The notes: generated by a model from the sequence alone, not told the origin. A stretch of DNA of 36,149 bases from a virus (IMGVR_UViG_3300031963_000464:1-36149), one strand, 5' to 3'; positions 11,546-31,485 are shown, counted from the first letter of the stretch. Program-made: numbers and translations.

Positions 11546-12100
11546 ATGTCATTTGAAGATAGAGAAAATCTCACAGATTTAAAGACTTTTACCGATGCGG
11601 TTTACTTTAATAATGATGTAAATTCTTACGGAACTCTAAAATCTCTTGGTAATGCTGAGGTTATAGGATCCCTTGATTTACAATCTAGTGCATCGGTAAA
11701 AGAAATTTTTGAAAAAAATGTAGTAAGTGAAGTTTCTGTAACTGGAGAAATTAATATTAATGTTTTAGATGGGTCTCTGCATAATTTTACATCAAACGCC
11801 TCTGGTAATTTCACCTTTAATATAAGAGCAAACGAAAGTGCTTCTTTAAATTCTGTAATGTTAGAGAAAAGGAGTATTGTAGTTACAACTTTGATACCTA
11901 TGGGATCCTCTGCTTATGTAATATTAAATCCAAGCACAACTGGATTCAAAATTGATGGCGACGCTGTTACCGTCAAATGGATTGGTTCATCTCCACCATC
12001 ATCTGGATTCTCAAACTCAATAAATTCATATACTTTTGCGATAATTAAAAACAGTAATCAAAACTTTACAGTTTTAGGAACTCTTACTAGATTTGGATAA
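11546..12100 (+). CDS. Small fibre or baseplate-associated structural protein
   Basis: This 184-aa protein opens SFEDRENLTDLKTFTDAVYFNNDV and continues with short strands (YGTLKSLGNAEVIGSLDLQSS), as in tail-fibre shafts and in the longer fibre genes of this window. The second half (NFTFNIRA, SIVVTTLIPMGSSAYVILNP, VTVKWIG) resembles a small beta-sandwich tip seen in marine-phage fibres. An AGAGGA ribosome-binding sequence lies 8 bases before the ATG. The stop codon TAATG overlaps the start of the next adhesin gene. A short fibre or fibre connector is plausible; the exact role is unknown. Confidence 0.6.
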   Translation: MSFEDRENLTDLKTFTDAVYFNNDVNSYGTLKSLGNAEVIGSLDLQSSASVKEIFEKNVVSEVSVTGEININVLDGSLHNFTSNASGNFTFNIRANESASLNSVMLEKRSIVVTTLIPMGSSAYVILNPSTTGFKIDGDAVTVKWIGSSPPSSGFSNSINSYTFAIIKNSNQNFTVLGTLTRFG

Positions 12101-14523
12101 TGCCAATACTTGGAACTCAATCTTCATTAAACGCTAGTGCATATGGTTTTGGTGGACAAAGTGTTACTGCCAATGCAAGTGTAACTCCAACTAATTTAAC
12201 AGAAGGAACCCAAATTACAGTTACAGTAACCACAGATGGTATACCTGATGGAACCACTCTTTATTACACCATAAGTGGAACATTAGGAACTATTACTGCA
12301 TCAGATTTTACAGATAATTCATTATCAGGATCTTTTGTTATCAATAGTAATACTGGATCTTTTACAAAAACTGTTGCTGCTGATGGTGTTGTAGAAGATG
12401 GAGAAGCATTTGTAGTTCAAATACGACAAAATTCCATTACTGGTCCAATTTTAAATACTACATCTTCTGTCTATATTCAAGGTTCACAATCAACTGGTGT
12501 TGGTCAGATCCTCCCAACAGTTAATGGTATAGAATATTGGGATTTTGCCACTAATGGAAATCTAATTTTAGATGGTCAAACTGAATATACTTACACTGCT
12601 GCAACAAATGTAAAACTTAAAGCTTTTATTTGGGGTCAAGGAGGAAAAGGTCCACAAGGTGGATTAGGTGGATATTCATATGGCACTTTTAATTTAAGTC
12701 AGGGTAGTAGTCTCTATATGAGATTAAATTATGGAAGTGGTTCAGCAGGTCCTGGAAGTGGTACAGGGGCAAATACCGCAGAGGGAGGTGGTGGACTTGC
12801 TGGAATTTTTTCATCATCAACAATCAATCAAACAAATGCAAGATTGATAGCAGGTGGTGGAGGAGGGGGAGCATCATCGATTGGTAATTGCACTGGTGGA
12901 GCTGGTGGTGGACCATCAGGATCTGCCGGTCAAAATTCACCAGATAGTCAAATTTCATCCACTGGTGGTGGAGGAGGAACGCAAAGTTCTGGTGGTGCTG
13001 GTGGAACCGCTTCGAGTAGTTATACAAAGACAACAACACAAACAGTCAGTAATTCACCAACAGAAGCTGGTGTGTACCACGAAAGATCCGGAGGTGTTAA
13101 TACTGTCCTTAATTCCACTGGAGAAGCTACTATATCTCACACAAATACTTTCGATTATAATTGGTCCTTTAATACTCCATATAATAATAGTAGTTACTCA
13201 GTATCTACTAGCAATGTTAGTGCTTATCAAAATATATCCGCAAATGGAACACTTGTACCAGCAGGATTTTATTCTGTTGTTGATAACAAAACTTCAAATG
13301 GATTTAGAGTAAGGTGGTTTAGAAATGATGATAACAGCGCGATTAATGTTCGATATCATACAATAACTTGCTCTGGCGAGAGAAATGTTACTAGTAGTCA
13401 AACTATACCTGTTAGTGCTAATGGATCTTCTGGAAGTGCTCTTCAAGGTGGTGCTGGTGGATCTGGATCAACAGGTTTTGGATATTCAAACGCTAGCGGC
13501 GGTGGTGGAGGCGGTGCTGGATACTACGGTGGTGGAGGCGGTGCAGGTGGTAATGACTATGGAGATGGATCTCGTGCTTCTTCTGGTGGAGGTGGTGGTT
13601 CTGGATATGTCCATCCATCAGTTATTAATGGATTTACAGGTGGATATCCTAATGGATCTTCTCATCCAAACAGAGGAACTGCTGGTAATGCTGGCACCGA
13701 TTCAAGAATTGTTCTACAAGGAATTTTTGCCTTTGAATATAAAGGACTTGGAGGTAATGAAGTATACTCTGTAAATGTTCCAAGCACTGCAATATCAATG
13801 ACCGCCAAAGTATGGGGTGCAGGTGGGCAAGGTGTAGGAGAATGCCCATCTGGTGCTTTTAGTGGAGGTAGTGGAGGATATGTTACAGGAACAATACCAG
13901 TTACTGGGGGATCAACTGTTGGTGTCTATGTTGGAGGATCAGGAGTAGGATCAAAAACTTCTCCATATTCTCAGGCAGGTTCTGGTGCTGGAAATGGTGG
14001 TGGATTATCTGCTGTTTCTTATGGTGCAAATATATTAGTTGCAGGTGGAGGTGGAGGTGCTGGGCAAAATGGACAGGGTGGATATGGTGGTGGAAATGGT
14101 TCTGGTGGAAGCGGTTCTGGTCCAAACAATGGTGGCGCAGGAACTCAAAGTGGTGGTGGAGGAGGTGGATCTTCTGATGATAGGAATGGTGGCAGTGGAG
14201 ATTTTTGGAGCAGTGGATTTAATCTAGCCAACGGTGGAAATTCTGGTGGTTCTGGTATAAATCAAGGAAATCGTGGTGGTGGCGGTGGTGCTGGATATTA
14301 TGGTGGAGGTGGAGGTGGAGGATATTCCAATAGTAACTGCTCTGGTGGTGGTGGAGGAGGAGGATCTGGAATTATTTCTGGTTCCTGGACAAATACATCA
14401 TCACAAAATGGTTTGACTGGAACTGGCGGTGGAAGACCAGCGGTGAACACTAGTGATGAAAATTATGTTCCTGGATACGGGGGCAGCTCCCAGAATGGAT
14501 TAGTTGTCCTTATCTTTGAATGA
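12100..14523 (+). CDS. Glycine-rich tail adhesin with Calx-beta-like domain
   Basis: An 807-aa protein. Residues ~28-127 form a Calx-beta-like repeat (NLTEGTQITVTVTTDGIPDGTTLYYTI ... VEDGEAFVVQIR), common in surface adhesins. Two Gly-rich modules follow, each starting with a hydrophobic strand pair and a W-G-x-G-G motif (FIWGQGGKG near 172; VWGAGGQG near 570), continuing as long Gly runs and containing YYGGGGG. Such sequences resemble the polyglycine-sandwich tips of T-even gp38-type adhesins. A ~130-residue segment without Gly runs (about 307-445) interrupts the first module and may be a receptor-binding insert. It starts by TAATG overlap with the preceding structural gene and ends the rightward late operon. 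Confidence 0.7.
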   Translation: MPILGTQSSLNASAYGFGGQSVTANASVTPTNLTEGTQITVTVTTDGIPDGTTLYYTISGTLGTITASDFTDNSLSGSFVINSNTGSFTKTVAADGVVEDGEAFVVQIRQNSITGPILNTTSSVYIQGSQSTGVGQILPTVNGIEYWDFATNGNLILDGQTEYTYTAATNVKLKAFIWGQGGKGPQGGLGGYSYGTFNLSQGSSLYMRLNYGSGSAGPGSGTGANTAEGGGGLAGIFSSSTINQTNARLIAGGGGGGASSIGNCTGGAGGGPSGSAGQNSPDSQISSTGGGGGTQSSGGAGGTASSSYTKTTTQTVSNSPTEAGVYHERSGGVNTVLNSTGEATISHTNTFDYNWSFNTPYNNSSYSVSTSNVSAYQNISANGTLVPAGFYSVVDNKTSNGFRVRWFRNDDNSAINVRYHTITCSGERNVTSSQTIPVSANGSSGSALQGGAGGSGSTGFGYSNASGGGGGGAGYYGGGGGAGGNDYGDGSRASSGGGGGSGYVHPSVINGFTGGYPNGSSHPNRGTAGNAGTDSRIVLQGIFAFEYKGLGGNEVYSVNVPSTAISMTAKVWGAGGQGVGECPSGAFSGGSGGYVTGTIPVTGGSTVGVYVGGSGVGSKTSPYSQAGSGAGNGGGLSAVSYGANILVAGGGGGAGQNGQGGYGGGNGSGGSGSGPNNGGAGTQSGGGGGGSSDDRNGGSGDFWSSGFNLANGGNSGGSGINQGNRGGGGGAGYYGGGGGGGYSNSNCSGGGGGGGSGIISGSWTNTSSQNGLTGTGGGRPAVNTSDENYVPGYGGSSQNGLVVLIFE

Positions 14524-14985: not shown

Positions 14986-14999
14986 TCTAAGGGTTTTTT
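14980..14999 (+). terminator. Short rho-independent terminator
   Basis: CCCT (14980-14983), a six-base loop, AGGG (14990-14993) and six T residues. The stem is only 4 bp and overlaps the antitoxin stop, so termination may be partial, letting some transcripts into the tRNA region. Confidence 0.45.
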
Positions 15000-15087
15000 G
15001 CGAGTGAGACTTGGTAGTCAGAGGAGTCTTATAAACTCTTTCCGCCAGATTAGCGGCTTTGACCTGGTTCGAATCCAGGCACTCGTA
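15000..15087 (+). tRNA. Class II tRNA-like gene, anticodon loop CTTATAA (apparent UAU), unusual D-arm
   Basis: The acceptor stem GCGAGTG pairs with CACTCGT, with discriminator A (15087). The T-arm CCTGG-TTCGAAT-CCAGG is perfect. The anticodon arm GGAGT/ACTCT closes loop CTTATAA, putting TAT at 15030-15032. A long variable arm (CCGC/GCGG hairpin) follows, as in Leu, Ser or Tyr tRNAs, none of which reads AUA. The D-arm is about four bases short: GAC or GACT pairs around TTGGTA. It may be an odd functional tRNA, a tRNA-Leu relative with altered anticodon arm, or a decaying gene. Confidence 0.55.
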
Positions 15088-15091
15088 TCGT

Positions 15092-15165
15092 GCTCGTTTA
15101 CCTATCTGGTTGAAAGGAGCGTCCTCATAAGACGACATAGACTGGTTCAATTCCAGTAACGAGCA
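15092..15165 (+). tRNA. tRNA with CAU anticodon (Met, or Ile2 if modified)
   Basis: A normal cloverleaf: acceptor GCTCGTT/AACGAGC with discriminator A, D-stem CCT/AGG, anticodon arm GCGTC-CTCATAA-GACGA with CAT at 15126-15128 (one G-A mismatch at the base of the stem), a five-base variable loop, and T-arm ACTGG-TTCAATT-CCAGT. The outer GT/AC bases could extend the acceptor to nine pairs. CAU can mean Met or, with lysidine, Ile (AUA). The sequence does not decide, but AUA is common in AT-rich phage genes. No 3' CCA is encoded. Confidence 0.8.
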
Positions 15166-15166
15166 C

Positions 15167-15195
15167 TTGACCACTATGACTTTATGAGTTATAAT
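15167..15195 (+). promoter_or_regulatory. Sigma-70-type promoter for tRNA-Leu
   Basis: TTGACC (15167-15172), a 17-base spacer and TATAAT (15190-15195). The start near 15202 falls seven bases before the tRNA. Confidence 0.8.
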
Positions 15196-15208
15196 GGTCT
15201 CACATCAC

Positions 15209-15290
15209 GGGGCGGTGATGAAATCGGTAAACATTCCGGTCTTAAAAACCGGTGGCGCAAGCCTTGCGGGTTCAAGTCCCGCTCGCCCTA
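15209..15290 (+). tRNA. tRNA-Leu (UAA)
   Basis: A complete class II tRNA: acceptor GGGGCGG/TCGCCCT (G-T wobbles at both ends) with discriminator A, a three-pair D-stem ATG/CAT with GG in the loop, anticodon arm CCGGT-CTTAAAA-ACCGG with TAA at 15243-15245, variable arm GGC-GCAA-GCC, and T-arm GCGGG-TTCAAGT-CCCGC. It reads UUA, a codon favoured in AT-rich phage genes. It has its own promoter. Confidence 0.92.
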
Positions 15291-15297
15291 CTTAAAG

Positions 15298-15331
15298 TAG
15301 TAAACTCTATAAATAGTAGTAGCGTTTACTA
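15298..15331 (+). promoter_or_regulatory. Late promoter TATAAATA inside a perfect 8-bp inverted repeat, before the HNH gene
   Basis: TAGTAAAC (15298-15305) and GTTTACTA (15324-15331) are exact inverted repeats with an 18-base loop holding TATAAATA (15308-15315), the exact T4 late promoter. The second arm ends five bases before the ATG at 15337. RNA read through from the tRNA promoter could fold and hide the ribosome site. RNA started at the late promoter (near 15321) would lack the first arm and stay open. Confidence 0.6.
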
Positions 15332-15336
15332 TTTAA

Positions 15337-15798
15337 ATGAATAGCAGATATACTTATAGCGAACAAGAACTTTATGAAGCGGTGAAAAGTTCTACCAGCA
15401 TTCGTCAAGTTTTAGATAAGTTAAATATTGTTCCTGCGGGTGGAAACTATCAAACTACGAATAGAAGAATACAAAAGTTAGGTATTGACACCTCACATTT
15501 TACTGGACAAGCGTGGAACAAAGGGAAAATTATTGGTCCAAAAAGACATATTAAAGAATACTTAAAGGAAAATTCGATAGTTCAGTCGTTTAAATTAAAA
15601 GGTCGCCTATTAGCAGAAGGTCTCAAACAACACAAGTGCGAGTGCTGTGGTATAACCGAATGGAATGGGCAACCAGCACCAATTGAACTTGACCACATAA
15701 ACGGCAACCATCACGATAATCGTTTAGAAAACCTTCGTATCCTGTGCCCCAACTGTCACGCACAAACGGATACTTATAGGGGTAAGAACAAAAAATAA
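15337..15798 (+). CDS. HNH homing endonuclease
   Basis: A 153-aa protein. The N-terminal ~50 residues contain a helix-turn-helix-like element (SIRQVLDKLNI) and an AWNKGK motif typical of phage homing enzymes. The C-terminal domain is a zinc-finger HNH nuclease: Cys101-x-x-Cys104, IELDHINGN with Asp119-His120, Asn128 in DNRLENLRILCPNCH, Cys137-x-x-Cys140 and His141. Such freestanding enzymes cut alleles lacking the gene and copy themselves in. It sits beside a tRNA cluster, a frequent insertion site. Expression is probably late only, through the structured leader. Confidence 0.85.
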   Translation: MNSRYTYSEQELYEAVKSSTSIRQVLDKLNIVPAGGNYQTTNRRIQKLGIDTSHFTGQAWNKGKIIGPKRHIKEYLKENSIVQSFKLKGRLLAEGLKQHKCECCGITEWNGQPAPIELDHINGNHHDNRLENLRILCPNCHAQTDTYRGKNKK

Positions 15799-16162: not shown

Positions 16163-19100
16163 ATGCCTTTAAACAAGCTTGAGAATTTTATCAAGAATAC
16201 AGAAGGTCGTATTCTTTATGTCAACCCCAATGATCTTGATGCTACTGATGGTGTTGAGAATCAAGGCAACTCATTAACAAAGCCTTTCAAAACAATTCAA
16301 AGAGCACTGATTGAGTCTGCTAGATTCTCATATTTGAGAGGAAATGATAATGATATTACAGAAAAAACTACAATTCTTCTGTTCCCTGGCGAACACTTAG
16401 TTGATAATAGACCTGGTTATGCTATTAAGGATAGTGGTGGTGTTGCAACAGCGGTAACTCCTGCTGGAACAGAAATGTTCGCTGGTGCAGAACTATCGTT
16501 AACATTGAATAGTAATTTTGATTTAACGCAAGAAGATAATATTCTTTATAAATTCAACAGTATCAATGGTGGTGTTGTTGTACCAAGAGGAACATCAATT
16601 GTTGGTCTTGATCTAAGAAAGACTAAGATTCGTCCAAAATACGTTCCAAACCCAACTGATTCAGATGCACCAACGAGTGCTATTTTTAGAATTACTGGTG
16701 CCTGTTATTTCTGGCAATTCTCTGTTTTTGATGGAAATGAACTAGGTCTTGTTTATACTGATCCAAGAGATTTTTCTGTAAATAATCAATCAAGACCTAC
16801 TTTCTCTCACCATAAACTTACAGTATTCGAATATGCTGATGGTGTAAATCTACCAAGTGGTTATGGTATCACTGACCTTGATATGTATTATAGTAAGGTC
16901 AGTAATGCATTTAATAGAGCATCTGGTAGAGAAATTGATCAAAAATATCCAGCAGAAGCAAATTCTTTTGCAAAGCAAAGACCTGAATGGGAAATTGTTG
17001 GTGCGTTTGCTGCGGATCCGATTAGAATCTCATCAATTATTTCTGGTGATGGAGCATCTCCTGGTACGATTGTAACTGTTACAACACAAGTTCCTCATGG
17101 ATTGACTGCGGGAACTCCTGTTAAAATTCGTGGAATTAATGTAAATGATTACAATATTTCAACGAAAGTTGCACAAGTTATCAGTGAAAACATTTTCACG
17201 TATGCACTTTTAAATGTAAGAGCAAACCTCCCTGCTGGTCCTGCCGCTGGTCTTGCACCAGGAGCAACAGCAGCAGTTATTATTGAAACTGATACTGTTT
17301 CTGGCGCATCACCATACATCTTTAACTGCTCACTCAGATCTGTCTGGGGTATGCAGGGTATGCACGCAGATGGCAGTAAAGCGGCTGGTTTCCGTTCGAT
17401 GGTTGTTGCCCAGTACACTGCAATCTCCCTACAAAAGGATGACCGTGCATTTGTAAAATATAATCCGTCAAATAGAACTTTTGATAGTATTGGTCTATCA
17501 AAAGTAACTGGTGAAGCATTATCATCAGGTTCATCGTCAATTAACCAGGCATCAGTTTATCACTTAGACCCAAATGCCATTTATAGAAATGGATGGGAAA
17601 CAACGCACATTAAATTCACTAACGATTCGTTCATTCAAATCGTTTCGGTGTTTGCGATTGGATTTACCCGCCACTTCGAAGCGCAAAGTGGTGGTGATGG
17701 ATCGATTACAAACTCTAACTCCAACTTTGGACAGATTTCTCTGTCAGCAGATGGATTCAAAGCAACAGCGTTTGATAAAGATAATAAAGGATACATAACA
17801 TCAATTGTTGCCCCAAGAGCTATTGTCAGTGCAGATTCAAATATTGAATGGGTCCAATTTGATGTCGAAAAAACTAAATCCGTTGGCATCAACAATCATT
17901 TGTATTTGTTAGGTTATACAAATCAAGACATTGCACCGCCAGTTATTTCGCAGGGATATAGAATTGGTTCAAAGATAAATGATAAAGTTTATGTTGATGG
18001 ATATAGTGCAGATATCTTGATGACCAATGGTCCAATCTTACCACCAGCAACAACTGCATCAGGATCTGCAAGTTCATCCAAGATTTATAGTAATGTATCA
18101 TTAGAAAATAATAATAACGGCACAGTTTACAACATTCCATTAGGTCACACTCTAAAAAATGGAGAATCAATACAAATTTTTAGTGAAACTGGTGATCTTC
18201 CAGAGGGTCTAGAAGCAAACGTTTTATATTATGCAATAACATCTGAGAAAAAGACTTCCCTAGGTGCTACTCAGATTCAAATTGCATCTTCCAGGACTAA
18301 TGCATCTGCTCAAACTCCACTAGCAATTACAAGTTTTGGTGGTTCTCAACTTAGAATTGAAAGTAGAGTTTGTGATAAAGAAGCTGGTGAACTAGGTCAT
18401 CCAATTCAGTGGGATCCAAATCAAAATCAATGGTTTGTTCACACTAACGCAAATAGTGAACTTTATCAATACATTCAATCACAAATTTCTAGTAGCACTA
18501 TAACTAGTACTCAGGTAGTGATTGCACCATCTGATGGTGAAACATTTACAGTAGATTCAATATCTTATCCTGTGATGGGTACATTGTATGTACCAACCAG
18601 TATACCTAGTTCTAGCATCGATGTTATAGTTGTATATCATGGTACAATTTCTGAAGCAGGAACGCAAACTATTGCTGAGGCAGCTCAGCAATCATTAGAA
18701 GTCTTTATTGATGAAAATGAATTAAACATAAGAGATAAGATTATTTTCTCTGTCGCATATCCACAGGATCATATTTCCAATACAAGACAATATAATCTTC
18801 CAGGTGTAGGTACAGAAGAACCTACATTCCTCTTTGGCGATAACTTACCTTATGCAAGAGCTGCATTAAAGTGGGTTCAAAATTCATTAGATACTTTTAT
18901 GTCATCTAATGGAATTAGTAAGACAATTGGAAATGTTTATATATTTGGACATTCACAAGGTGGTTCTCTTGTTTGCAAGTTGAACACCCTGGAAACAGGT
19001 ATAACTGGCGTTATTGCAAATGCACCTGGTCCAATTCAATTTGACCAAACATGTAATGTACAACCAGGAAGTACTTCATGTACAAAAATTGCAGCAATTC

Positions 19101-22100
19101 ATGGTCCTTCTGCTGGTGATGGATCTGAACCTTATCAATCAATAGGTATTGAGTCTTACACTAGCACACATAATGCTCAAATGCTGTTCACTCAGGCATT
19201 GGACGATACTGCTGGTGGTGGAAGTCAAGCAACATGGTTGCAAGCTTACATTAATGCTATTGATGCAATTCCAGCAAATGCGAATACATCTTATGTAACA
19301 GTTCCAACTGGAGGACATGCAGCATTCGTAACTGATGATACTCTCCAAGCAGCAATCAGAAATTTCGTTAACTCTGATTTTACAGTAAGTGATGAGATTA
19401 ATATCTCATATGTATTAAGAAAAGAAGATGATAGAAGTTTAGATGAAAAGATTTACAAACTTCGTTATGTAGTTCCAAAAGAATTAGTAAATGGTAGAGA
19501 TCCAAGTGAAGGATTTATTCTTCAGGATTCAAGTTCTACAAGTGTTAGAGAGAATTCTGATTTTGGACTAACTCAAATTACAACTTCGGATTATGACTAT
19601 AATCGTAATCCAAGATTTATTACAACATGCACCTTTGATTCTGGCAGCGCAATTGTTACTGTAAGATCTGATTCAACTCATAATTTAAAAGTTGGTGATA
19701 AAATTATTGTTAATAATGTTATCAGTACAACTAATGTTGAAGCAACTAATAATATTGGATATAATGGAGTATTTACAGTAAATTCCATTGTAAACGACAA
19801 AACCTTTACATATAGTTCTACTGATGTATTTGGAATTGTTCACAACCCAGGAACATTTACAGGTAATATTACTACAAGGACAAAAGATCTTCCTAGATTT
19901 ACTAGAAACGATCTTCTCGACAATTTCTATGTTTACCGAGCAGAAGTTGTTACTCCATATATTTACAATGTTCAAGATGGTGTCTATTACCTATATGTAC
20001 TTAACTCTGGTAATGCTGTCCCTTCGGAATTCACAGATTCAAAATATTCTCAGAAGGTAACAGATCTCTATCCACAACAAGATCGAGATAATTATAATGA
20101 TAATCCACCAGCAGCGAAAACTTTTGCCAAGAGATTCCCACTTGGAGATGTTGTCACTAATGATTTAAAGAGAAGTTTGACAAGAGAAAGTGTTGATAAA
20201 TTCTTTAACGCATTTTCTCATGGTAAGAAAATTACCACAGTTTCTAGTAGTCCAACATCGGCAACTCTGACATTTGACAGTGAACACCAGTTAGGTGGAC
20301 TAAGACAATACACAACTCTTAATGGTGGATCTGGACATAGTAATGGAACTTACTATAATGTAAGACTTTTCAACAGCAATGCAGCACCTTCATCTGCCGT
20401 TTGGGATGGAGCAACCGCAAATGTTACTGTAAGTGGTGGTGCCGTAACATCAGCAACGATCGTTGAAGGTGGATCTGGATATACTAATGGGGAACAACTT
20501 TATTTTGATAGTAGTGTAATTGGAGGTACTCCTCAGGCAAATGTTGTTGTAAACACTGCTGGTATTTCAACAGCAACTGGAAATTATGTTCAAGTTACTG
20601 GTATTGGTACAACTGCTGGTGGATATTTTAGAATTACTGATACTTCGAATAAGAGTGCCATTTCCATTGCAAAAACTGCAGGAGATCCATTAATTGTAGC
20701 AAATCAATATGCAATTAATATTGGACCAGCAGTAACAATTTCACAAACTGACTATAATTCAACAACTAAAATTGCAACATACCAATCATTAAACTTACCT
20801 CACGGATTACTTGCTGGAAATTCATTCAGAATTTTAGATAGCAGCAACAACAATCTTGGTGATTATATTGTTAATAATGTTAATACTCCAAATGAGTTTA
20901 CTGTTAAAGTTTCCAGTTCGCTTTCAACAGCAAGATGGGCTCTAAAACATGGTATGTCTGCAAACAGTGCAAGTGCAGACAATCTTGGAGAAAATCTTGG
21001 TGTAAGATCTATTGGTATCTTTGAAAATGAACTTTTAATTCTGGGTCAAAATGTTACCACAGAAGAACAATTTATTGTTGATCTCCCTGGTGCTGGAATC
21101 GGAACAATGTCGAGATTCCCACTTGGTTCTTATATTCAGATTGACAACGAAATTATGAGAGTTAGATCTAGCACTTTAACAGGTGCGGGATCCAATCAAA
21201 TTCAAGTTATTCGTGGTTCAATGGGAACCATCATTGAACCACATCCTAATGGTTCTTTAATTAAAAAAATCAAACTGACTCCTGTTGAATTCCGTAGACC
21301 TTCAATTATTCGTGCATCTGGTCATACCTTCGAATATCTTGGTTATGGTCCTGGTAACTACTCAACTGGTTTACCACAAGTCCAAGTTAAGACTTTGAGT
21401 GAGAAAGAAGATTATCTAGCATCTGCACAAGAAACTTCTTGCGGATCTGTTCTATACACTGGTATGAATAGTGATGGAGATTTCTATATTGGAAACGTTA
21501 AATATTCTGCACAATCTGGTGAGCAAACAACATTTGATGTACCAACACCAACAATCACTGGCGAAGATCCAAACAGATTGAGTGTTGTATTTGATGAAGT
21601 TATCGTTAAGGAAAGAATACTGATTGAAGGTGGAAACTCTGGTCAAATTCTTTCACAATTTGACGGTCCTGTGACCTTCAACGGTGAAGTTAGAATGACG
21701 AGAGCGTTAATTCTGAATAATAATCTCAGAGTTTCTGGTGCAGTTGAAGTTAAAGATGATTCAGAATCTACAAGTTGTGCAACAGGAGCACTAATTGTTG
21801 CAGGTGGACTTGGAGTTGCAAAGAGACTCAATGTTTGTGGAGACGTTAAGTTCTTCTCTACAACAGATTCCTCATCAGTAACAACAGGATCACTTGTTGC
21901 ATATGGTGGAGTTGGAATCAGAAAAACACTAGCAGTTGGTGGAGATGTTTATCTGAGAACAAGTAAGAAACTTGTAATTGGTGATTCCCAAGAGTTGAGA
22001 ATTTTCACTGATGGAACATCAAGTTACATTTCTGAACGTGGAACTGGAACTTTACAAATCTTGTCTAATGGTTTACAAATTAAGAATGCTCTAGGAAATG

Positions 22101-22600
22101 AAAATCTAATAACTGCGGCAGCAGATGGTGCAGTTAGTTTGTACCATGATAATAACATAAGACTTCAAACAACAACTGCTGGTATAGCAGTTGCTGGTGG
22201 AATAACTGGAAGTTCTTTGTCAATTTCCGGATCCGCAACAGTCGGTTCTCTAAGAGTTAATGGAAGCATTGAAGCAACTGGCGATATCAGCGCGTTTGTT
22301 TCTGATGATAGATTGAAGACTGATAAAGTTATTATCAGTAATGCTCTTGAAAAAGTTTGTTCGTTGAATGGATTTACTTATAAATTCAATGAAACTGCTG
22401 GAAAACTTGGATTTGATATGAATGAAACGCATGTTGGTGTTTCTGCACAAGAAGTTCAAGCAGTTCTTCCAGAAGTAACTGCACCTGCCCCAATTAGTAA
22501 TGAATACATTACAGTTAAGTATGACAAGTTAGTTCCACTACTAATTGAAGCAATTAAAGACTTGAAAAAAGAAATTGAAGAATTGAAATCTAACAAATAA
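16163..22600 (+). CDS. Giant tail-fibre/receptor-binding protein with internal alpha/beta-hydrolase and S74 chaperone
   Basis: A 2145-aa protein. Residues ~15-95 (ILYVNPNDLDATDG, SLTKPFKTIQRAL, TTILLFPGEHL) begin a pectate-lyase-like beta-helix as in marine-phage fibres. Residues ~775-1085 look like an alpha/beta hydrolase: IDVIVVYHG strand, nucleophile elbow GHSQGG with Ser931, acid candidates Asp1014/1015 in QALDDTAG, and His1052 in TGGHAAF. The fibre resumes at SLDEKIYKLRYVVPKELVNG. Later come beta-repeat and collar-like motifs (RALILNNNLRVSGAVEVKDD). The end is an S74 intramolecular chaperone with SDDRLK (Ser2047, Lys2052), which normally cuts itself off after trimer folding, and a terminal coiled coil. 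The hydrolase may remove acyl groups from host surface glycans. Confidence 0.85.
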   Translation: MPLNKLENFIKNTEGRILYVNPNDLDATDGVENQGNSLTKPFKTIQRALIESARFSYLRGNDNDITEKTTILLFPGEHLVDNRPGYAIKDSGGVATAVTPAGTEMFAGAELSLTLNSNFDLTQEDNILYKFNSINGGVVVPRGTSIVGLDLRKTKIRPKYVPNPTDSDAPTSAIFRITGACYFWQFSVFDGNELGLVYTDPRDFSVNNQSRPTFSHHKLTVFEYADGVNLPSGYGITDLDMYYSKVSNAFNRASGREIDQKYPAEANSFAKQRPEWEIVGAFAADPIRISSIISGDGASPGTIVTVTTQVPHGLTAGTPVKIRGINVNDYNISTKVAQVISENIFTYALLNVRANLPAGPAAGLAPGATAAVIIETDTVSGASPYIFNCSLRSVWGMQGMHADGSKAAGFRSMVVAQYTAISLQKDDRAFVKYNPSNRTFDSIGLSKVTGEALSSGSSSINQASVYHLDPNAIYRNGWETTHIKFTNDSFIQIVSVFAIGFTRHFEAQSGGDGSITNSNSNFGQISLSADGFKATAFDKDNKGYITSIVAPRAIVSADSNIEWVQFDVEKTKSVGINNHLYLLGYTNQDIAPPVISQGYRIGSKINDKVYVDGYSADILMTNGPILPPATTASGSASSSKIYSNVSLENNNNGTVYNIPLGHTLKNGESIQIFSETGDLPEGLEANVLYYAITSEKKTSLGATQIQIASSRTNASAQTPLAITSFGGSQLRIESRVCDKEAGELGHPIQWDPNQNQWFVHTNANSELYQYIQSQISSSTITSTQVVIAPSDGETFTVDSISYPVMGTLYVPTSIPSSSIDVIVVYHGTISEAGTQTIAEAAQQSLEVFIDENELNIRDKIIFSVAYPQDHISNTRQYNLPGVGTEEPTFLFGDNLPYARAALKWVQNSLDTFMSSNGISKTIGNVYIFGHSQGGSLVCKLNTLETGITGVIANAPGPIQFDQTCNVQPGSTSCTKIAAIHGPSAGDGSEPYQSIGIESYTSTHNAQMLFTQALDDTAGGGSQATWLQAYINAIDAIPANANTSYVTVPTGGHAAFVTDDTLQAAIRNFVNSDFTVSDEINISYVLRKEDDRSLDEKIYKLRYVVPKELVNGRDPSEGFILQDSSSTSVRENSDFGLTQITTSDYDYNRNPRFITTCTFDSGSAIVTVRSDSTHNLKVGDKIIVNNVISTTNVEATNNIGYNGVFTVNSIVNDKTFTYSSTDVFGIVHNPGTFTGNITTRTKDLPRFTRNDLLDNFYVYRAEVVTPYIYNVQDGVYYLYVLNSGNAVPSEFTDSKYSQKVTDLYPQQDRDNYNDNPPAAKTFAKRFPLGDVVTNDLKRSLTRESVDKFFNAFSHGKKITTVSSSPTSATLTFDSEHQLGGLRQYTTLNGGSGHSNGTYYNVRLFNSNAAPSSAVWDGATANVTVSGGAVTSATIVEGGSGYTNGEQLYFDSSVIGGTPQANVVVNTAGISTATGNYVQVTGIGTTAGGYFRITDTSNKSAISIAKTAGDPLIVANQYAINIGPAVTISQTDYNSTTKIATYQSLNLPHGLLAGNSFRILDSSNNNLGDYIVNNVNTPNEFTVKVSSSLSTARWALKHGMSANSASADNLGENLGVRSIGIFENELLILGQNVTTEEQFIVDLPGAGIGTMSRFPLGSYIQIDNEIMRVRSSTLTGAGSNQIQVIRGSMGTIIEPHPNGSLIKKIKLTPVEFRRPSIIRASGHTFEYLGYGPGNYSTGLPQVQVKTLSEKEDYLASAQETSCGSVLYTGMNSDGDFYIGNVKYSAQSGEQTTFDVPTPTITGEDPNRLSVVFDEVIVKERILIEGGNSGQILSQFDGPVTFNGEVRMTRALILNNNLRVSGAVEVKDDSESTSCATGALIVAGGLGVAKRLNVCGDVKFFSTTDSSSVTTGSLVAYGGVGIRKTLAVGGDVYLRTSKKLVIGDSQELRIFTDGTSSYISERGTGTLQILSNGLQIKNALGNENLITAAADGAVSLYHDNNIRLQTTTAGIAVAGGITGSSLSISGSATVGSLRVNGSIEATGDISAFVSDDRLKTDKVIISNALEKVCSLNGFTYKFNETAGKLGFDMNETHVGVSAQEVQAVLPEVTAPAPISNEYITVKYDKLVPLLIEAIKDLKKEIEELKSNK

Positions 22601-22619: not shown

Positions 22620-24647
22620 ATGGCTTTACAGGGTTCTGGAACCATAAGTTTCTCTCAAATAGCCGGTGAATTCGGTTTACCTCCTAGGAGAAATTTGGGA
22701 GCATACCGAGTTAGTGAAAGTTTTAGTGGACTAGTGAATATGCCACTAGATACTGGTATTCCACAATCTGGTAGAATTAATTTTAGTGATTTTTATAATA
22801 AAAAACTCAATATGGTTATTGACTGTTACAGTCAAAGTGGATCTATTCCAGAATCATTTCATTTTGATACTTATGAAGCTTTAAATACTGGTTTACGAGA
22901 ATGTTGGTTTAGAGTTGATAATCCATCGGTCAGTTCGGCAGATGTATACTTAACCTCTTTTGGTTCTGGTGTTGCGTTAGTTCCAATAAGAATTGTAGTA
23001 AATGATAACCCACAAATTTCATCAACCTCATTTGATACAATAATAATTCAACAAGGTGCAGATTCTGGTGTTCCATCAGCAAGTGATATTGTTATTAATT
23101 TTAGAGATCCTTTGGATATAACTGTTAGTGCATATATTAGTAGTACACCATTAAAAATTACATTTACTGGATTGAAAAGAGATATAAGATATCTCGACAT
23201 GGCAAATCAAACTGTAACACTACCAGTTTCTGATGCTTTTGGATCTGTTCAGGGATATCCAAGTCTTGGAAAGGGGTTAGCTTTAAGAGATAGTGCTGGC
23301 GATGATTTAAATACTGGAATTACAATTGGAACAGCAACACCAATAAGTGGTAATAATACAAGAGTGTCTAATGGTCCCTTATATCCATTTAAGGCAGATC
23401 CCTTATCATGGTCCGGACAATTTAATTCTGGTGGATGGATAGGAAGATATGGAGTTACTCCAATTAATGTATGGGACACTTCAAATAATTATGGTGTAAT
23501 TAAGGCAAATAATGGTAGTGGAGGACAGTTTATTTGGGTCTACACAATTTCCATACCTACTGATGGAAATTACACTATTAGAAGTATTGCTGATGACACA
23601 GCTACTGTACAATTTTTACCAACTAGTTTCCAATTTAATGTTGGATTTTCTGGACTTGTTTATGAAAAAACTGTTGCTTTAAAAGCTGGAACTTATCAAG
23701 TAAGAGTTACTTATAATCAGTGTACTACTTGTGGACCTATAAAAACAACGGATCCTATTGGAAACCCAAGTTATTTTGCATTGACAATAGATGCATCAAC
23801 ACAAGTTATCGACGTATCTAGTGCGATTAACAAATGTGGAATGAAATCGAGATACAACAACCTTCCAAGATCTACAAGAGTGATTGGTGGATTTAGAGGA
23901 AAACCATCATCTACATCAGGTACAAAAGTTTGGGCAGATGCAAATAACACAATTTACAATGGAACACAAAGGAACGGAACTAGCACAGCAGCATTTAGAA
24001 CAGGAATTTGGGATCCTGGAACAGAACTTATAGTTAATGTTGGTCCAAATGGAAAAATATATGGTTATGGTGGAAATGGAGGATCTGGTGGTGGATCGTC
24101 AAGAGCATCAACTAACGGAGAAAATGGTGGTGCAGCATTCTCGGCACAAACTAGTTGTACTCTCAGAAATTATGGATTGATTTATCAGGGATATGGTGGA
24201 GGTGGAGGTGGAGATGGTACAACATTTACTACACAAGTTTGTACAACTAGCACTACTGGTTCTGGAAGACGTAAGAGAACGGTGACAACCTGTGTAAACT
24301 ACGCTAACTTCTCCGGAGGTGGGGGAGGTGGTGGTGGAACTGGTTTACCATTTGGTGAAGGTGGTGGCGGTGGTCAAGGCGCATATGGTCCATCAGGAGG
24401 TAATGGATCAGCAGGATCACCAGGATCTAATTTATCTTCTGGTGGTGCTGGGGGCGCTGGTGGAAGCAGAGCAGGATCGGGTGGTAAGGGTGGCATACTT
24501 AACAAATCATCTGGAAATCCTGGAAAAGACTCTGGTGCAAATGGAGCTGCTATTACTTCTGCACCAGGTGTAACAGTAACTGTTCAAAATTTTGGAACTA
24601 TTACTGGAAGAACTTTGACAGACATCAATACAGATTTATTTGATTAA
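22620..24647 (+). CDS. Modular tail adhesin with Gly-rich C-terminus
   Basis: A 675-aa protein. Residues 1-62 (LQGSGTISFSQIAGEFGLPP ... SGRINFSDFYNKK) form an attachment-like module that I recognise from several structural proteins of T4-like marine phages. Residues ~265-400 (GGQFIWVYTISIPTDGNYTI, SIADDTATVQF, KAGTYQVRVTYNQC) resemble a PA14/GLEYA-type carbohydrate-binding beta-sandwich. From ~455 the chain is Gly-rich with runs of up to eight Gly, interrupted by a Cys-containing loop with GRRKR (about 535-562). The layout resembles gp38-type adhesins and the 807-aa protein upstream, so it probably contributes a receptor-contact tip. Confidence 0.7.
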   Translation: MALQGSGTISFSQIAGEFGLPPRRNLGAYRVSESFSGLVNMPLDTGIPQSGRINFSDFYNKKLNMVIDCYSQSGSIPESFHFDTYEALNTGLRECWFRVDNPSVSSADVYLTSFGSGVALVPIRIVVNDNPQISSTSFDTIIIQQGADSGVPSASDIVINFRDPLDITVSAYISSTPLKITFTGLKRDIRYLDMANQTVTLPVSDAFGSVQGYPSLGKGLALRDSAGDDLNTGITIGTATPISGNNTRVSNGPLYPFKADPLSWSGQFNSGGWIGRYGVTPINVWDTSNNYGVIKANNGSGGQFIWVYTISIPTDGNYTIRSIADDTATVQFLPTSFQFNVGFSGLVYEKTVALKAGTYQVRVTYNQCTTCGPIKTTDPIGNPSYFALTIDASTQVIDVSSAINKCGMKSRYNNLPRSTRVIGGFRGKPSSTSGTKVWADANNTIYNGTQRNGTSTAAFRTGIWDPGTELIVNVGPNGKIYGYGGNGGSGGGSSRASTNGENGGAAFSAQTSCTLRNYGLIYQGYGGGGGGDGTTFTTQVCTTSTTGSGRRKRTVTTCVNYANFSGGGGGGGGTGLPFGEGGGGGQGAYGPSGGNGSAGSPGSNLSSGGAGGAGGSRAGSGGKGGILNKSSGNPGKDSGANGAAITSAPGVTVTVQNFGTITGRTLTDINTDLFD

Positions 24648-27910: not shown

Positions 27911-28480
27911 ATGAAATTTACAATGGCGATTGGTAATCCTCCATATGGTGTTGGTGGCAATCTTGCAATCAAGTTTCTAAACAAAACATCAGAGATTACT
28001 GATGATATTCGGTTTGTGTTGCCAACATCTGTACGTAAACCATCATCATTGAATAAAATTTCTCCTAATCTTCATTGTACTTTTGATGTGGATTGTGATT
28101 CGAAATCATTTCCTGGTGGTATTAGTACTGTTTATCAGAGATGGGAACTTAAAAATAATAAGAGAGAAAAAATTGAATTATTAAAAACTCATCCAGATTT
28201 TGAATTTTTATCTTACGATAAGAGGTTTGATGCTGATGTATTTGTTGGTGAGTATGGTTGTGGACCCAGTGGTAGAGTAAAAACTGAAAACTTCACACAT
28301 TATGCAAAAGGACATCATTTCTTGAAAGTTCGTTCACCAGAGGTGATACAAAATCTCGTCGAGTTTGCGCCCGTGTTCAGAGAGGTTGCAAATCAGTGCA
28401 ATGGGAGGTATCATTTTGGCAAGAATGATCTGATCTCGACGTATATTAAGTGTCTAAAAGAAAAAAATGGCAAAGAATAA
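27911..28480 (+). CDS. Adenine methyltransferase part A: catalytic NPPY motif and putative target-recognition region
   Basis: A 189-aa protein opening MKFTMAIGNPPYGVGGNLAI. NPPYG at 9-13 is motif IV of N6-adenine DNA methyltransferases and is followed by the expected helix. The remaining ~150 residues have no other methyltransferase motif and may include the target-recognition region (for example KTENFTHYAKGHHFLKV). The S-adenosylmethionine-binding motif I is absent here but present in the next gene, which overlaps by 14 bases. The two probably assemble into one enzyme. It could instead be a degenerate remnant. Confidence 0.7.
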   Translation: MKFTMAIGNPPYGVGGNLAIKFLNKTSEITDDIRFVLPTSVRKPSSLNKISPNLHCTFDVDCDSKSFPGGISTVYQRWELKNNKREKIELLKTHPDFEFLSYDKRFDADVFVGEYGCGPSGRVKTENFTHYAKGHHFLKVRSPEVIQNLVEFAPVFREVANQCNGRYHFGKNDLISTYIKCLKEKNGKE

Positions 28481-28868
28481 ACATAATCAAGATGTTGGAT
28501 CAAGTATTGAAAGATCTGACGAGAGAATCAAGGAAACACAAGAAGTTTTTACACCAATGGAACTTGTTGAAAGTATGATTGATGATATTCCAGAACATCT
28601 TCTTCGAGATCCAAAAAGTACATTTATTGATAACTCAGCAGGATCTGGAAATTTTTTAGTAGGATTAAAAAATCGTTTATTAAAATATCACAGTGAAGAT
28701 CATATTCTTGATTATATGCTTTACGCTGTTGAGATGATGGAAGATAATCATAAAGAGTTGTGTCAACGTATCGGTGTTTCCGTTACACATCCCCATTACG
28801 TCTGTGCGAATGCGTTAGAATACGATTACTCATTTGGAGATCCAGTGGGGGTAGAACAGTTCTTCTAG
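28467..28868 (+). CDS. Adenine methyltransferase part B: AdoMet-binding domain
   Basis: A 133-aa protein with the front half of an Eco57I/HsdM-like N6-adenine methyltransferase: motif X-like QEVFTP at 25-30, motif I FIDNSAGSGNFLVGL at 53-67, acidic motif II YAVEMMEDN with Glu89, and a motif III-like ANALEYDYSF at 114-123. In ordinary enzymes NPPY follows within a few residues; here the chain stops at GVEQFF. NPPY lies at the start of the preceding overlapping gene, so the order is permuted and split. A terminator hairpin follows directly. Confidence 0.75.
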   Translation: MAKNKHNQDVGSSIERSDERIKETQEVFTPMELVESMIDDIPEHLLRDPKSTFIDNSAGSGNFLVGLKNRLLKYHSEDHILDYMLYAVEMMEDNHKELCQRIGVSVTHPHYVCANALEYDYSFGDPVGVEQFF

Positions 28869-28922: not shown

Positions 28923-30158
28923 ATGAGACCTGTGATTCAACTCCGACCTCACCAACAACGTGCTCTGGATGCCCTTGCCAAGTACCTGAAAGGGCAAGTG
29001 ATTATCCCCACTGGCGGCGGCAAGACTAATGTTGCTATCTTTGATGCTATTCGTGAGTTTCTTAAGAATATTCCCCAGACTATCGTGGTCGTGGCACCGC
29101 GCATCCTCCTGGCAGAGCAATTGTCCAGTGAGTTCTTGGAGTTCATCACCAATGCTTCTGTGCTGCACGTTCACAGTGGTGAAACTCATCACCAGAGCAC
29201 CACTCGCCCGAATGAGATTCGTAACTGGGTGGATCAGACTCGTGGTAACAAACTGATCTTCACCACCTACAACTCTCTGCAACGCCTGCAACAGGCAGAC
29301 GTTCACGTCAATACCATTTACTTCGATGAAGCACACAACTCTGTCCAGCGCCATTTCTTCCCTGCCACCGAGCATTTCGCTTCTACTGCTGACCGCTGCT
29401 ATTTCTTCACTGCTACTCCTAAGCATTCTGCTACTATTTCCAAACCTGGGATGAACGACGCTGCCGTTTATGGCAACGTGATCTGCAACGTACCTGCTCC
29501 TGAACTGGTAGAAGGTGGTTTCATTGTTCCTCCTAAGGTTGTTGTGCAGCAGTTTGAGATGCTCTCTAAGGGTCAGATTGTTGCTGATGTTGACTGTGAG
29601 AACCTGATTGCTACCATCGATGCTCAGGAAGTGGAGAAGGTTCTGATTTGTGCAAAAGCAACCAAACAGATTCAGAATCTGGTTTCTCAAACTGATTTCT
29701 GCACTCAACTGGAAGATCGTGGTTTCTCTTGGATGTATATCACCAGCAAGACTGGCGCTATCATCGATGGGCAGAAGGTCAACCGTGAGGTGTTTTTTGA
29801 TACTCTCAGTGCTTGGGGTAAGGATGACTCTAAGAAGTTTGTGGTTCTTCATCACAGCATTCTTTCTGAGGGAATCAATGTTTCTGGTCTGGAAGCAGTT
29901 CTCTTTATGCGTTCGATGGATTACATTGGCGTCTCCCAAACCATCGGTCGTGTGATTCGCCTCCACCAGAGCGACGCAGCGGCACTCAGGAGCGGCGCTA
30001 TTGCCCCTGGAAACCTTTCCGAGTATACTAAGTCCTTTGGGTTGGTTTGCATCCCTGTCTACTCTTCTGTGGGCATCAGCACCGCTAAGAAGGTGCAAGC
30101 GGTGGTGGACACCGTGTTCAACCAAGGTCAACCTGCCATTTCTATTGTAAAGCGATGA
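28923..30158 (+). CDS. SF2 DNA helicase (DEAH), restriction-type
   Basis: A 411-aa protein. Motifs in order: LRPHQQRAL at 7-15, Walker A PTGGGKT at 29-35, VVAPRILLAEQ at 56-66, DEAH at 135-138, TATP at 163-166, and QTIGRVIRLH from 339. This is a complete SF2 ATPase resembling Type I/III restriction or RecQ-UvsW-like translocases, without extra nuclease domains. Codons are GC-leaning (ctg, cgt, acc): 29041-29100 has 28 G+C of 60, against 21 of 60 at 27121-27180 (hand count). The stop shares ATGA with the next start. It could be a processing helicase or the motor of the nuclease/methylase cassette. Confidence 0.85.
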   Translation: MRPVIQLRPHQQRALDALAKYLKGQVIIPTGGGKTNVAIFDAIREFLKNIPQTIVVVAPRILLAEQLSSEFLEFITNASVLHVHSGETHHQSTTRPNEIRNWVDQTRGNKLIFTTYNSLQRLQQADVHVNTIYFDEAHNSVQRHFFPATEHFASTADRCYFFTATPKHSATISKPGMNDAAVYGNVICNVPAPELVEGGFIVPPKVVVQQFEMLSKGQIVADVDCENLIATIDAQEVEKVLICAKATKQIQNLVSQTDFCTQLEDRGFSWMYITSKTGAIIDGQKVNREVFFDTLSAWGKDDSKKFVVLHHSILSEGINVSGLEAVLFMRSMDYIGVSQTIGRVIRLHQSDAAALRSGAIAPGNLSEYTKSFGLVCIPVYSSVGISTAKKVQAVVDTVFNQGQPAISIVKR

Positions 30159-30670
30159 TTGATTTCAACACCTTTGAATTGGATCGATTTTCCAAACTTC
30201 TCAGCACAATTAAAGACTACACGAAGGATAATCTTCGGTTTCCAAAAGCAGGTGAACTTGTGGAAAAAGCACTTGCAGAATACAGCAATGGATTACTTAC
30301 ACGAGTTAATCTTCCTGGTATTGATTTGATTGGTCCTGACAAAAAGACTTATGAATCAAAGGTGACTCAGTTTCAAAATAAATCTGAGATGGCAGTGAGA
30401 AAGGTAATTCTAAAAAATCGCCGTAAGTCAGGAAACTATACAGACAAACTTGCCGATTATTTCATTATTACCGATGTAAAAAAAGGTAAAATGTGCTGTA
30501 TTCCATCATCAAGATTTTATAAAATCAAAGACAATGGTTCTACTGTAACAGCACACGCCGATCCAGAACTTTCCGATTTCTTTTTGACAGGGTATAATGA
30601 TAACAAAGAGACTCGGAATTATTTTGATGAGTCTGATGATTTTGATTTGAGGTTTATTAGGTCAATATGA
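30155..30670 (+). CDS. Putative PD-(D/E)XK nuclease, restriction-endonuclease-like
   Basis: A 171-aa protein with a possible nuclease core: Glu34/Glu37 in GELVEKAL, Asp57 in PGIDLIG, and Glu67-Ser-Lys69 in YESKVTQ, spaced as in PD-(D/E)XK enzymes such as type II restriction endonucleases. The following helix is basic (RKVILKNRRKS) and could contact DNA. Strands ADYFIITDV and MCCIPSSRFYKI complete an alpha/beta core. It overlaps the helicase stop and the next methyltransferase start by four bases each (ATGA). No specific family is recognised; the nuclease call rests on the motif and context. Confidence 0.5.
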   Translation: MIDFNTFELDRFSKLLSTIKDYTKDNLRFPKAGELVEKALAEYSNGLLTRVNLPGIDLIGPDKKTYESKVTQFQNKSEMAVRKVILKNRRKSGNYTDKLADYFIITDVKKGKMCCIPSSRFYKIKDNGSTVTAHADPELSDFFLTGYNDNKETRNYFDESDDFDLRFIRSI

Positions 30671-31485
30671 ATCAACTGTTTCAAGGCGATTGTTTAGAGA
30701 TTATGTCCACACTTCCTGATGGTTGTGTCGATATGGTTTTTGCAGACCTTCCTTATGGAACCACCCAGAATGAATGGGATTGTTTGATTCCATTTGATCA
30801 ACTGTGGGAACAGTATCATCGTGTGGTGAAGGAAAATGGTGCAATTGTACTCACTGCTCAACCACCCTTTGATAAAGTGCTTGCCTGTTCTAATCTGAAA
30901 TACTTCAAGTATGAATGGATTTGGGAAAAGAACAAGGCAACTGGACATCTTAATGCAAAGAAGATGCCTATGAAAGCGCACGAAAATGTGCTGGTGTTTT
31001 ATCGTAAGTTGCCAACATACAACCCCCAAATGACACAAGGGCATAAACCGATGAACGCGGTGCTGCCCAAGGACCAGTTGCCCCCTCCCGACAGAAAACG
31101 CAATTATAACCATGTTGAGAAGCGTCTGGGCAATCCTGGTGGTTCAACTACAAGATATCCCCGTGATGTACTGCAATTTCCTGTCATCAACAACGATGAT
31201 CCCTTGAAGTTCCATCCAACACAGAAACCTGTGCCTCTAATTGAGTATTTTATCAAGACATACAGCAATGAAGGTGATGTTATCCTAGATAACTGTATGG
31301 GTTCAGGATCAACAATCATTGCCTGCAAGAATATTAACCGTCAATACATTGGAATTGAGAACGATCCAGAGTATTTTGAAAAGGCACGGGAGTGGGTGGG
31401 ATCCTACGATAAAATTGACCCCTTTGTGACAGATGAGGAAGTGGCACAGTCCGCTCTGAATCCGTTGCTCTCTGCATTAAAATAA
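30667..31485 (+). CDS. DNA N6-adenine (or N4-cytosine) methyltransferase, beta class
   Basis: A 272-aa protein with beta-class motif order. It opens LFQGDCLEIMSTLPDGCVDM with catalytic motif IV DLPYG at 27-31, then a recognition region (about 70-170), HPTQKPVPLIEYFI (motif X) near 180, motif I DNCMGSGST at 208-216, and YIGIEND at about 226. DLPYG fits adenine targets better than cytosine. The domain is complete for this class, which includes HinfI- and CcrM-like enzymes; T4 Dam is alpha class. It is co-translated with the nuclease-like gene, so it may protect phage DNA from that nuclease. Confidence 0.88.
   Translation: MNQLFQGDCLEIMSTLPDGCVDMVFADLPYGTTQNEWDCLIPFDQLWEQYHRVVKENGAIVLTAQPPFDKVLACSNLKYFKYEWIWEKNKATGHLNAKKMPMKAHENVLVFYRKLPTYNPQMTQGHKPMNAVLPKDQLPPPDRKRNYNHVEKRLGNPGGSTTRYPRDVLQFPVINNDDPLKFHPTQKPVPLIEYFIKTYSNEGDVILDNCMGSGSTIIACKNINRQYIGIENDPEYFEKAREWVGSYDKIDPFVTDEEVAQSALNPLLSALK

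Follow-up and report, generated by a model that had tools for sequence, protein, structure and literature searches.

How does an enzyme-like segment come to lie in the middle of a phage tail fibre, and what would it do there? The question is raised by IMGVR_UViG_3300031963_000464, a viral stretch of 36,149 nucleotides (hereafter the window), whose plus strand encodes a giant tail fibre of 2145 amino acids (aa) and of PHROG_529 type, i.e. a cyanomyovirus tail fibre (16163..22600). An earlier note, made from the sequence alone, had proposed that an α/β-hydrolase domain is inserted in this protein. We followed up that proposal, and find that the fibre carries a predicted serine hydrolase whose close relatives are mostly circularly permuted and sit in mostly non-homologous virion proteins. 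Coordinates given for the fibre and its parts refer to the plus strand of the window.

A hydrolase domain inserted in the fibre

The fibre matches the PHROG_529 profile (E=0, 1422.8 bits) in two stretches, one on either side of the segment: profile positions 1-695 correspond to fibre residues 1-777, and positions 682-742 pick up again after it. The N-terminal fibre part (residues 1-766; 16163..18460), with the motif GHPIQWDPN at 745-753, and the C-terminal part (residues 1086-2145; 19418..22600), with SLDEKIYKLRYVVPKE at 1092-1107, both run on with insert-free homologues. Between them lies the hydrolase domain (residues ~775-1072; 18485..19378). Fibres of S-SRM01, P-SSM2, ACG-2014f, S-SKS1, S-T4, S-CAM7 and virus AG-345-L05 are 47-55% identical to the window fibre on both flanks, and all seven cross the insertion site with a short loop of variable length, with ~300 aa fewer. 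A tblastn search with the fibre region as query returned 453 phage records, none of which reaches 80% query coverage because the insert is missing from them; among the phage records searched, the hydrolase domain was found only in Synechococcus phage S-SCSM1. The insertion proposed in the earlier note is thus borne out, and the contrary outcome it named, homologous fibres that all carry the segment with a lost triad, did not arise, since homologous fibres have no such segment at all. We conclude from these alignments that the domain is inserted in frame, in a variable loop of the fibre.

We then asked whether the segment has the active site and fold of a hydrolase. Ser931 (18953..18955), the proposed nucleophile in a GHSQGG elbow (929-934), and His1052 (19316..19318), within GGHAAF (1050-1055), stand where the earlier note placed them, and each is invariant in 30/30 close homologues. 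For the acid the note had offered either residue of the DD pair at 1014-1015. Asp1015 (19205..19207) is likewise invariant (30/30), but Asp1014 is replaced by G, N or S in 8/30 homologues; hence the triad acid is Asp1015. Equally invariant (30/30) are His826-Gly827 (18638..18643), an HG motif that is a candidate for the oxyanion hole, and Cys964 and Cys973 (19052..19081), in the loop after the strand that follows the elbow, which possibly form a disulfide.

A single-sequence search with the domain found no solved structure; a beta-lactamase ADC that appeared as a possible PDB relative (E 0.08) was set aside as chance, since its alignment misses the motif and the fold search leads to α/β hydrolases. 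An AlphaFold2 model of residues 771-1080, built on an alignment of the window fibre and locus sequences only, reached a predicted local distance difference test score (pLDDT) of 87.4 and a predicted template modelling score (pTM) of 0.88. In model numbering, the HG motif comes straight after strand 48-55, Ser931 is residue 161, in the elbow between strand 151-160 and helix 162-173, Asp1015 comes right after strand 236-242, and His1052 right after the last strand, 272-277. Foldseek matched the model to 871 PDB chains at E<=0.001, and those listed are α/β hydrolases; VIA gave Z ~22, with 248-252 residues aligned, to lipase Lip_vut4 (6nkf), carbohydrate esterase 6xyc and acylaminoacyl peptidases. 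Among the fold neighbours are lipases, S9 acyl-peptidases and esterases of carbohydrate and feruloyl type; among viral models, the sole near match is the S-SCSM1 protein. The mixed beta sheet flanked by helices, the canonical strand order, the GxSxG elbow and the Ser-Asp-His order are those of an α/β hydrolase, the fold that the earlier note had anticipated. SGNH/GDSL phage esterases, which have their catalytic serine in an N-terminal GDSL-type block and a flavodoxin-like fold, do not match, since the serine here lies in a GHSQGG elbow and the fold is that of an α/β hydrolase. Taking the model and the conserved residues together, the segment is probably a catalytically competent α/β serine hydrolase with the predicted triad Ser931-Asp1015-His1052 and an HG oxyanion motif.

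Circularly permuted relatives

Alignment-based scans of IMG/VR yielded 29 loci at first and later more, including a distant group, so that the domain is now found in 44 different contigs and in the isolate S-SCSM1. Within the close clade only four members (window, L011, L025 and L022) have the canonical order. In four others (type B: S-SCSM1, L010, L012 and L013) the chain is cut just ahead of the last strand, and in 24 (type A) it is cut in the loop before the lid/alpha-D region, at window residues ~982-991. Most copies are therefore permuted, with Asp and His preceding Ser. In the window domain, the loop that matches the type A chain ends lies at residues 982-991 (19106..19135), ahead of the lid/alpha-D region, and the loop that matches the type B ends at residues 1036-1041 (19268..19285), ahead of the last strand. 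According to a survey of the superfamily, alpha-D varies more than any other element and lids are inserted directly ahead of it (PMC11878206), which fits the type A cut.

Permuted copies are 53-73% identical to the canonical sequence, and a short conserved linker, GSTNPxGxIxN, connects their old ends. When the records were searched with a profile that had the window on top, every permuted one independently gave two pieces whose order is reversed; each record, including complete S-SCSM1 and a 250-kb contig, carries one domain. Overlapping BLAST pieces had hinted at tandem duplication in L015, L024, L026 and L028; we rejected this, as these sequences show one C-part, one N-part and then the host protein, the overlap arising because BLAST ran on into host sequence. 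The permuted L014 domain was predicted with a pLDDT of 89.5 and a pTM of 0.91. In the PDB its model is matched best by engineered circularly permuted HaloTags (Z 13.5, with nearly all of the chain aligned), whereas ordinary hydrolases score about 9-11, mostly with the N-part alone aligned.

The isolate provides the closest described counterpart. SSCSM1_235 (QFG06499.1), named 'tail fiber protein', has the same domain, 59-63% identical (59% for the body against the window domain), with the same triad; it differs in being permuted before the last strand, so that its His block, VPGTSHAAFTSNATLQAAIRNF, is N-terminal, ahead of the body, and in being housed in an ~80-aa-type MADYS...GQMYPR protein rather than in the fibre. 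SSCSM1_225, the S-SCSM1 fibre of the window-fibre type, has no match to the hydrolase domain. A Peripla_BP_5 match in S-SCSM1, below its cut-off, was rejected on the same grounds as the beta-lactamase match.

Carrier proteins

The close clade occupies ~15 sites, mostly in non-homologous virion proteins. In the PHROG_529 fibre there are two, one near residue 770 (window, L011 and L025, canonical; L015, type A) and one near 1663 (L017-L019). A PHROG_30655 virion protein houses L022 (canonical) and L029-L031 and L034 (type A). Further copies sit in the gp7 baseplate wedge (L020, L037), other giant virion or baseplate proteins (L016, L033), PHROG_9729 fibres at two sites (L021; L035/L036), the short tail fibre PHROG_4924 (L024, L026, L028), a PHROG_15006 fibre (L054, L057), a podovirus tail protein of the tail tube (L014), a phage subtilisin (L032), a separate carrier (L023), an unplaced protein among tail genes (L027) and, for type B, the small MADYS protein. 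The annotations of domain copies read tail fibre, baseplate or virion structural protein. In two carriers, the PHROG_529 fibre at ~770 and the PHROG_30655 protein, one site holds both topologies. Thus, topology and site do not travel together.

Comparison with empty homologues shows that the insertions are clean. Compared with the occupied sites, S-WAM2 has lost 0 aa, S-H9-1 1 aa and S-CAM3 11 aa, and the gp7 of P-SSM2 shows a slight overlap; the empty site of the S-RIP1 tail tube, TGA/TFTF, is split exactly at the slash in L014. For L017 and L016 this comparison gave no clean downstream partner in P-SSM2. One domain in several unrelated virion proteins, each with empty homologues, is the pattern of promiscuous virion decoration domains. 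Two lineages of the hydrolase, one distant and canonical (L087:5641-8763) and one close and of type A (L032:4078-7035), apparently reached one kind of phage protease-related protein, each at a place of its own.

Evolutionary history

To place the topologies relative to each other, we computed trees on rotated alignments. The distant viral group, which likewise occurs in fused or inserted settings, is canonical. The sole cellular relative found is a Parcubacteria protein, P0009 (L039:7737-8699), which is exported, has an N-terminal membrane anchor or signal and is also canonical; it is rare, occurring in 1/380 genomes sampled of its phylum. Since both of these are canonical, the canonical order is ancestral. 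Within the close clade the window domain splits off near the base, type B forms one clade (support 100/100) and type A is a near-star radiation from which L027 stands apart. Approximately unbiased (AU) tests rejected a single clade of all permuted rows (p 0.004-0.009) and also type A as a single clade (p 0.0009-0.04), and the rejections persist with the linker and cut loops dropped from the alignment. Two distinct cut points imply at least two permutation events; our best count, read from the trees, is about three, of which the event for L027 is less secure, since the AU tests were framed after the data had been seen. Ratios of nonsynonymous to synonymous substitution rates (dN/dS) of 0.14-0.51 in both topologies indicate purifying selection in both.

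We searched for a close cellular or plasmid source and found none in plasmids, and two scans of GTDB contigs, the pattern scans by which alone cyanobacteria were covered, gave only the Parcubacteria protein. At 14 insert ends there was no obvious target-site duplication and no shared terminal sequence, and there was no difference in GC (guanine plus cytosine) content (0.372 vs 0.364). We tentatively suggest a mobile enzyme cassette, although we hold this to be somewhat doubtful: DNA for a complete hydrolase would enter loops of unrelated virion genes again and again, in frame each time, and circular permutation, perhaps by way of tandem-copy or circular intermediates, would reset its ends. The phages would in this way keep one display-independent surface enzyme as its carrier changes.

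Proposed role

We favour, with some reserve, a virion-displayed and catalytically competent hydrolase that belongs to a roving family permuted at least twice; both display and ester cleavage are inferred. Its activity is probably that of an esterase or deacylase on host surface glycan or lipopolysaccharide. As the phage adsorbs or penetrates, the displayed enzyme would cleave an ester, its target being a lipid or the O-acyl groups of surface glycan or lipopolysaccharide. One copy on any exposed protein would be enough, so that a genome may carry the domain once, on whichever exposed protein tolerates it, and its site could drift between proteins. A cut in a surface loop brings the two chain ends next to each other, and the permuted domain would then fit a host loop without strain. 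The points for a virion role are the fold neighbours, the intact triad, the invariant cysteine pair, the carriers, which belong to the cell-contact apparatus, and the 'virion protein' tag that SSCSM1_235 bears in the S-SCSM1 record, where ~48 genes have that tag. The S-SCSM1 paper reports 45 virion proteins by mass spectrometry (PMC9602691).

Three observations weigh on the other side. The domain sequence is below every curated Pfam cut-off, the matches being Abhydrolase_6 (E=0.011, 16.9 bits vs a cut-off of 26.3) and Hydrolase_4 (E=0.013, 15.3 bits vs 27). By fold, S9 peptidases are as near as esterases. Finally, in the distant member L068 the motifs read GHTQGG and GGQ, with Ser and His both lost, so that catalysis is not needed for the domain to be retained. 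L068:3-11159 thereby offers a natural pseudoenzyme, with a degenerate active site inside a giant protein.

With esterases, lipases and S9 acyl-peptidases all among the fold neighbours, the bond cleaved may be an ester or an amide. The domain might thus be an S9-type peptidase with acyl-peptide or prolyl cleavage, trimming host surface proteins or processing virion proteins. Acylaminoacyl and S9 peptidases rank with the best fold matches, and Parcubacteria P0009 passes the Peptidase_S9 PF00326 cut-off (24.8 vs 22.6 bits), a family that is not among the Pfam matches of the window fibre. However, the beta-propeller that S9 enzymes use for oligopeptide selection is missing, and stand-alone esterases and lipases score equally well; we regard a peptidase as unlikely. 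We give still less credence to a phospholipase or lipase that helps to breach the outer membrane after adsorption: the best single Z is to lipase Lip_vut4 and copies in baseplate wedge and tail-tube proteins are close to the penetration site, but equally many copies are in fibres, and the fold cannot separate lipase from esterase. It is quite improbable that the domain is now a mere binding or spacer decoration for which catalysis is irrelevant, as with phage immunoglobulin-like (Ig-like) domains; the promiscuous distribution and the lost triad of L068 would agree with this, but the triad is complete in 30/30 close members of all topologies and selection is purifying. That the permuted forms are assembly chimeras, or half-domains complementing each other between subunits, deserves almost no weight even though most loci are metagenomic contigs, since the isolated complete genome of S-SCSM1 carries a permuted form, 24 permuted contigs agree exactly in their boundaries and have the conserved linker and open frames in common, and a single chain is predicted to fold (pTM 0.91).

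A displayed hydrolase of this kind has partial precedents. It shares fold, nucleophile elbow and triad order with esterase, lipase and S9 acyl-peptidase α/β hydrolases (6nkf, 6xyc, 3o4g), which are only ~12% identical and are free enzymes, whereas the phage domain is built into a fibre. Engineered circularly permuted HaloTag (8b6n, 8b6o, 8b6p) is also an α/β hydrolase permuted in the cap region, but was made in the laboratory, whereas permutation in the phage relatives is natural; a natural permuted α/β hydrolase is fungal polyhydroxybutyrate depolymerase. Ig-like domains occur in many unrelated virion proteins and are missing in close relatives, a scattered distribution that the phage hydrolase resembles; they differ in being non-enzymes of another fold that are often added by frameshift, whereas the hydrolase shows in-frame insertion, permutation and an intact triad. 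Tailspike esterases are usually a fixed domain of one tailspike, of SGNH type, while the phage hydrolase is roving, permuted and of α/β-hydrolase fold; tailspike esterases act on surface O-acyl groups from the receptor-binding apparatus, as is proposed for the phage hydrolase. Tailspike esterases and deacetylases include the Vi-capsule acetyl esterase of Salmonella phages (cited in PMC7029224).

In the open-access literature we found no description of permuted phage hydrolases or of cyanophage fibre hydrolases or esterases. Each ingredient is known by itself, be it α/β hydrolases, permuted proteins or promiscuous virion domains; what we did not find there is their combination, one roving enzyme in phage virion proteins whose canonical and permuted members are still highly identical. 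Circular permutation in nature is usually deduced from comparisons of distant homologues. In the present family the canonical and permuted forms are 53-73% identical, occur in one environment and in some cases occupy one and the same host site, which makes the permutation route and the mobility of the domain testable. Our data suggest that marine phages keep shifting one surface-active enzyme between parts of the virus particle. They predict a surface-acting enzyme on cyanophage virions, whose chemical means of attaching to Synechococcus and Prochlorococcus are poorly known, and they offer enzyme engineers naturally tested permutation and insertion sites in the α/β-hydrolase fold. Annotation pipelines overlook the domain.

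Neighbouring genes

Near its C-terminus the window fibre has a Peptidase_S74 intramolecular chaperone (residues 2047-2105; 22301..22477; Pfam PF13884, E=1.3e-14). On either side of the fibre are glycine-rich proteins with long GGxGG stretches (12100-14523 and 22620-24647), which are probably structural or adhesin-like. An HNH endonuclease gene precedes the fibre; together with tRNA genes Ile-TAT, Met-CAT and Leu-TAA it occupies 14999-15798, directly upstream of the fibre region, and an HNH gene is likewise present at the equivalent place in S-RM-type relatives, S-SRM01 among them.

Farther downstream, at 27911-28868, we observed a split N6-adenine methyltransferase with its halves reversed: the NPPY catalytic half comes first (27911-28480; PADLOC MTase_II, E 2e-11) and is 73% identical in P-SSM2, and the half that binds S-adenosylmethionine comes second (28467-28868; N6_Mtase, E 5e-4). 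Adjoining it, at 28923-31485, are a ResIII/DEAD helicase, a 171-aa protein of no family and a second DNA methylase (N6_N4_Mtase), a group that looks like a phage-borne modification or restriction-type cluster.

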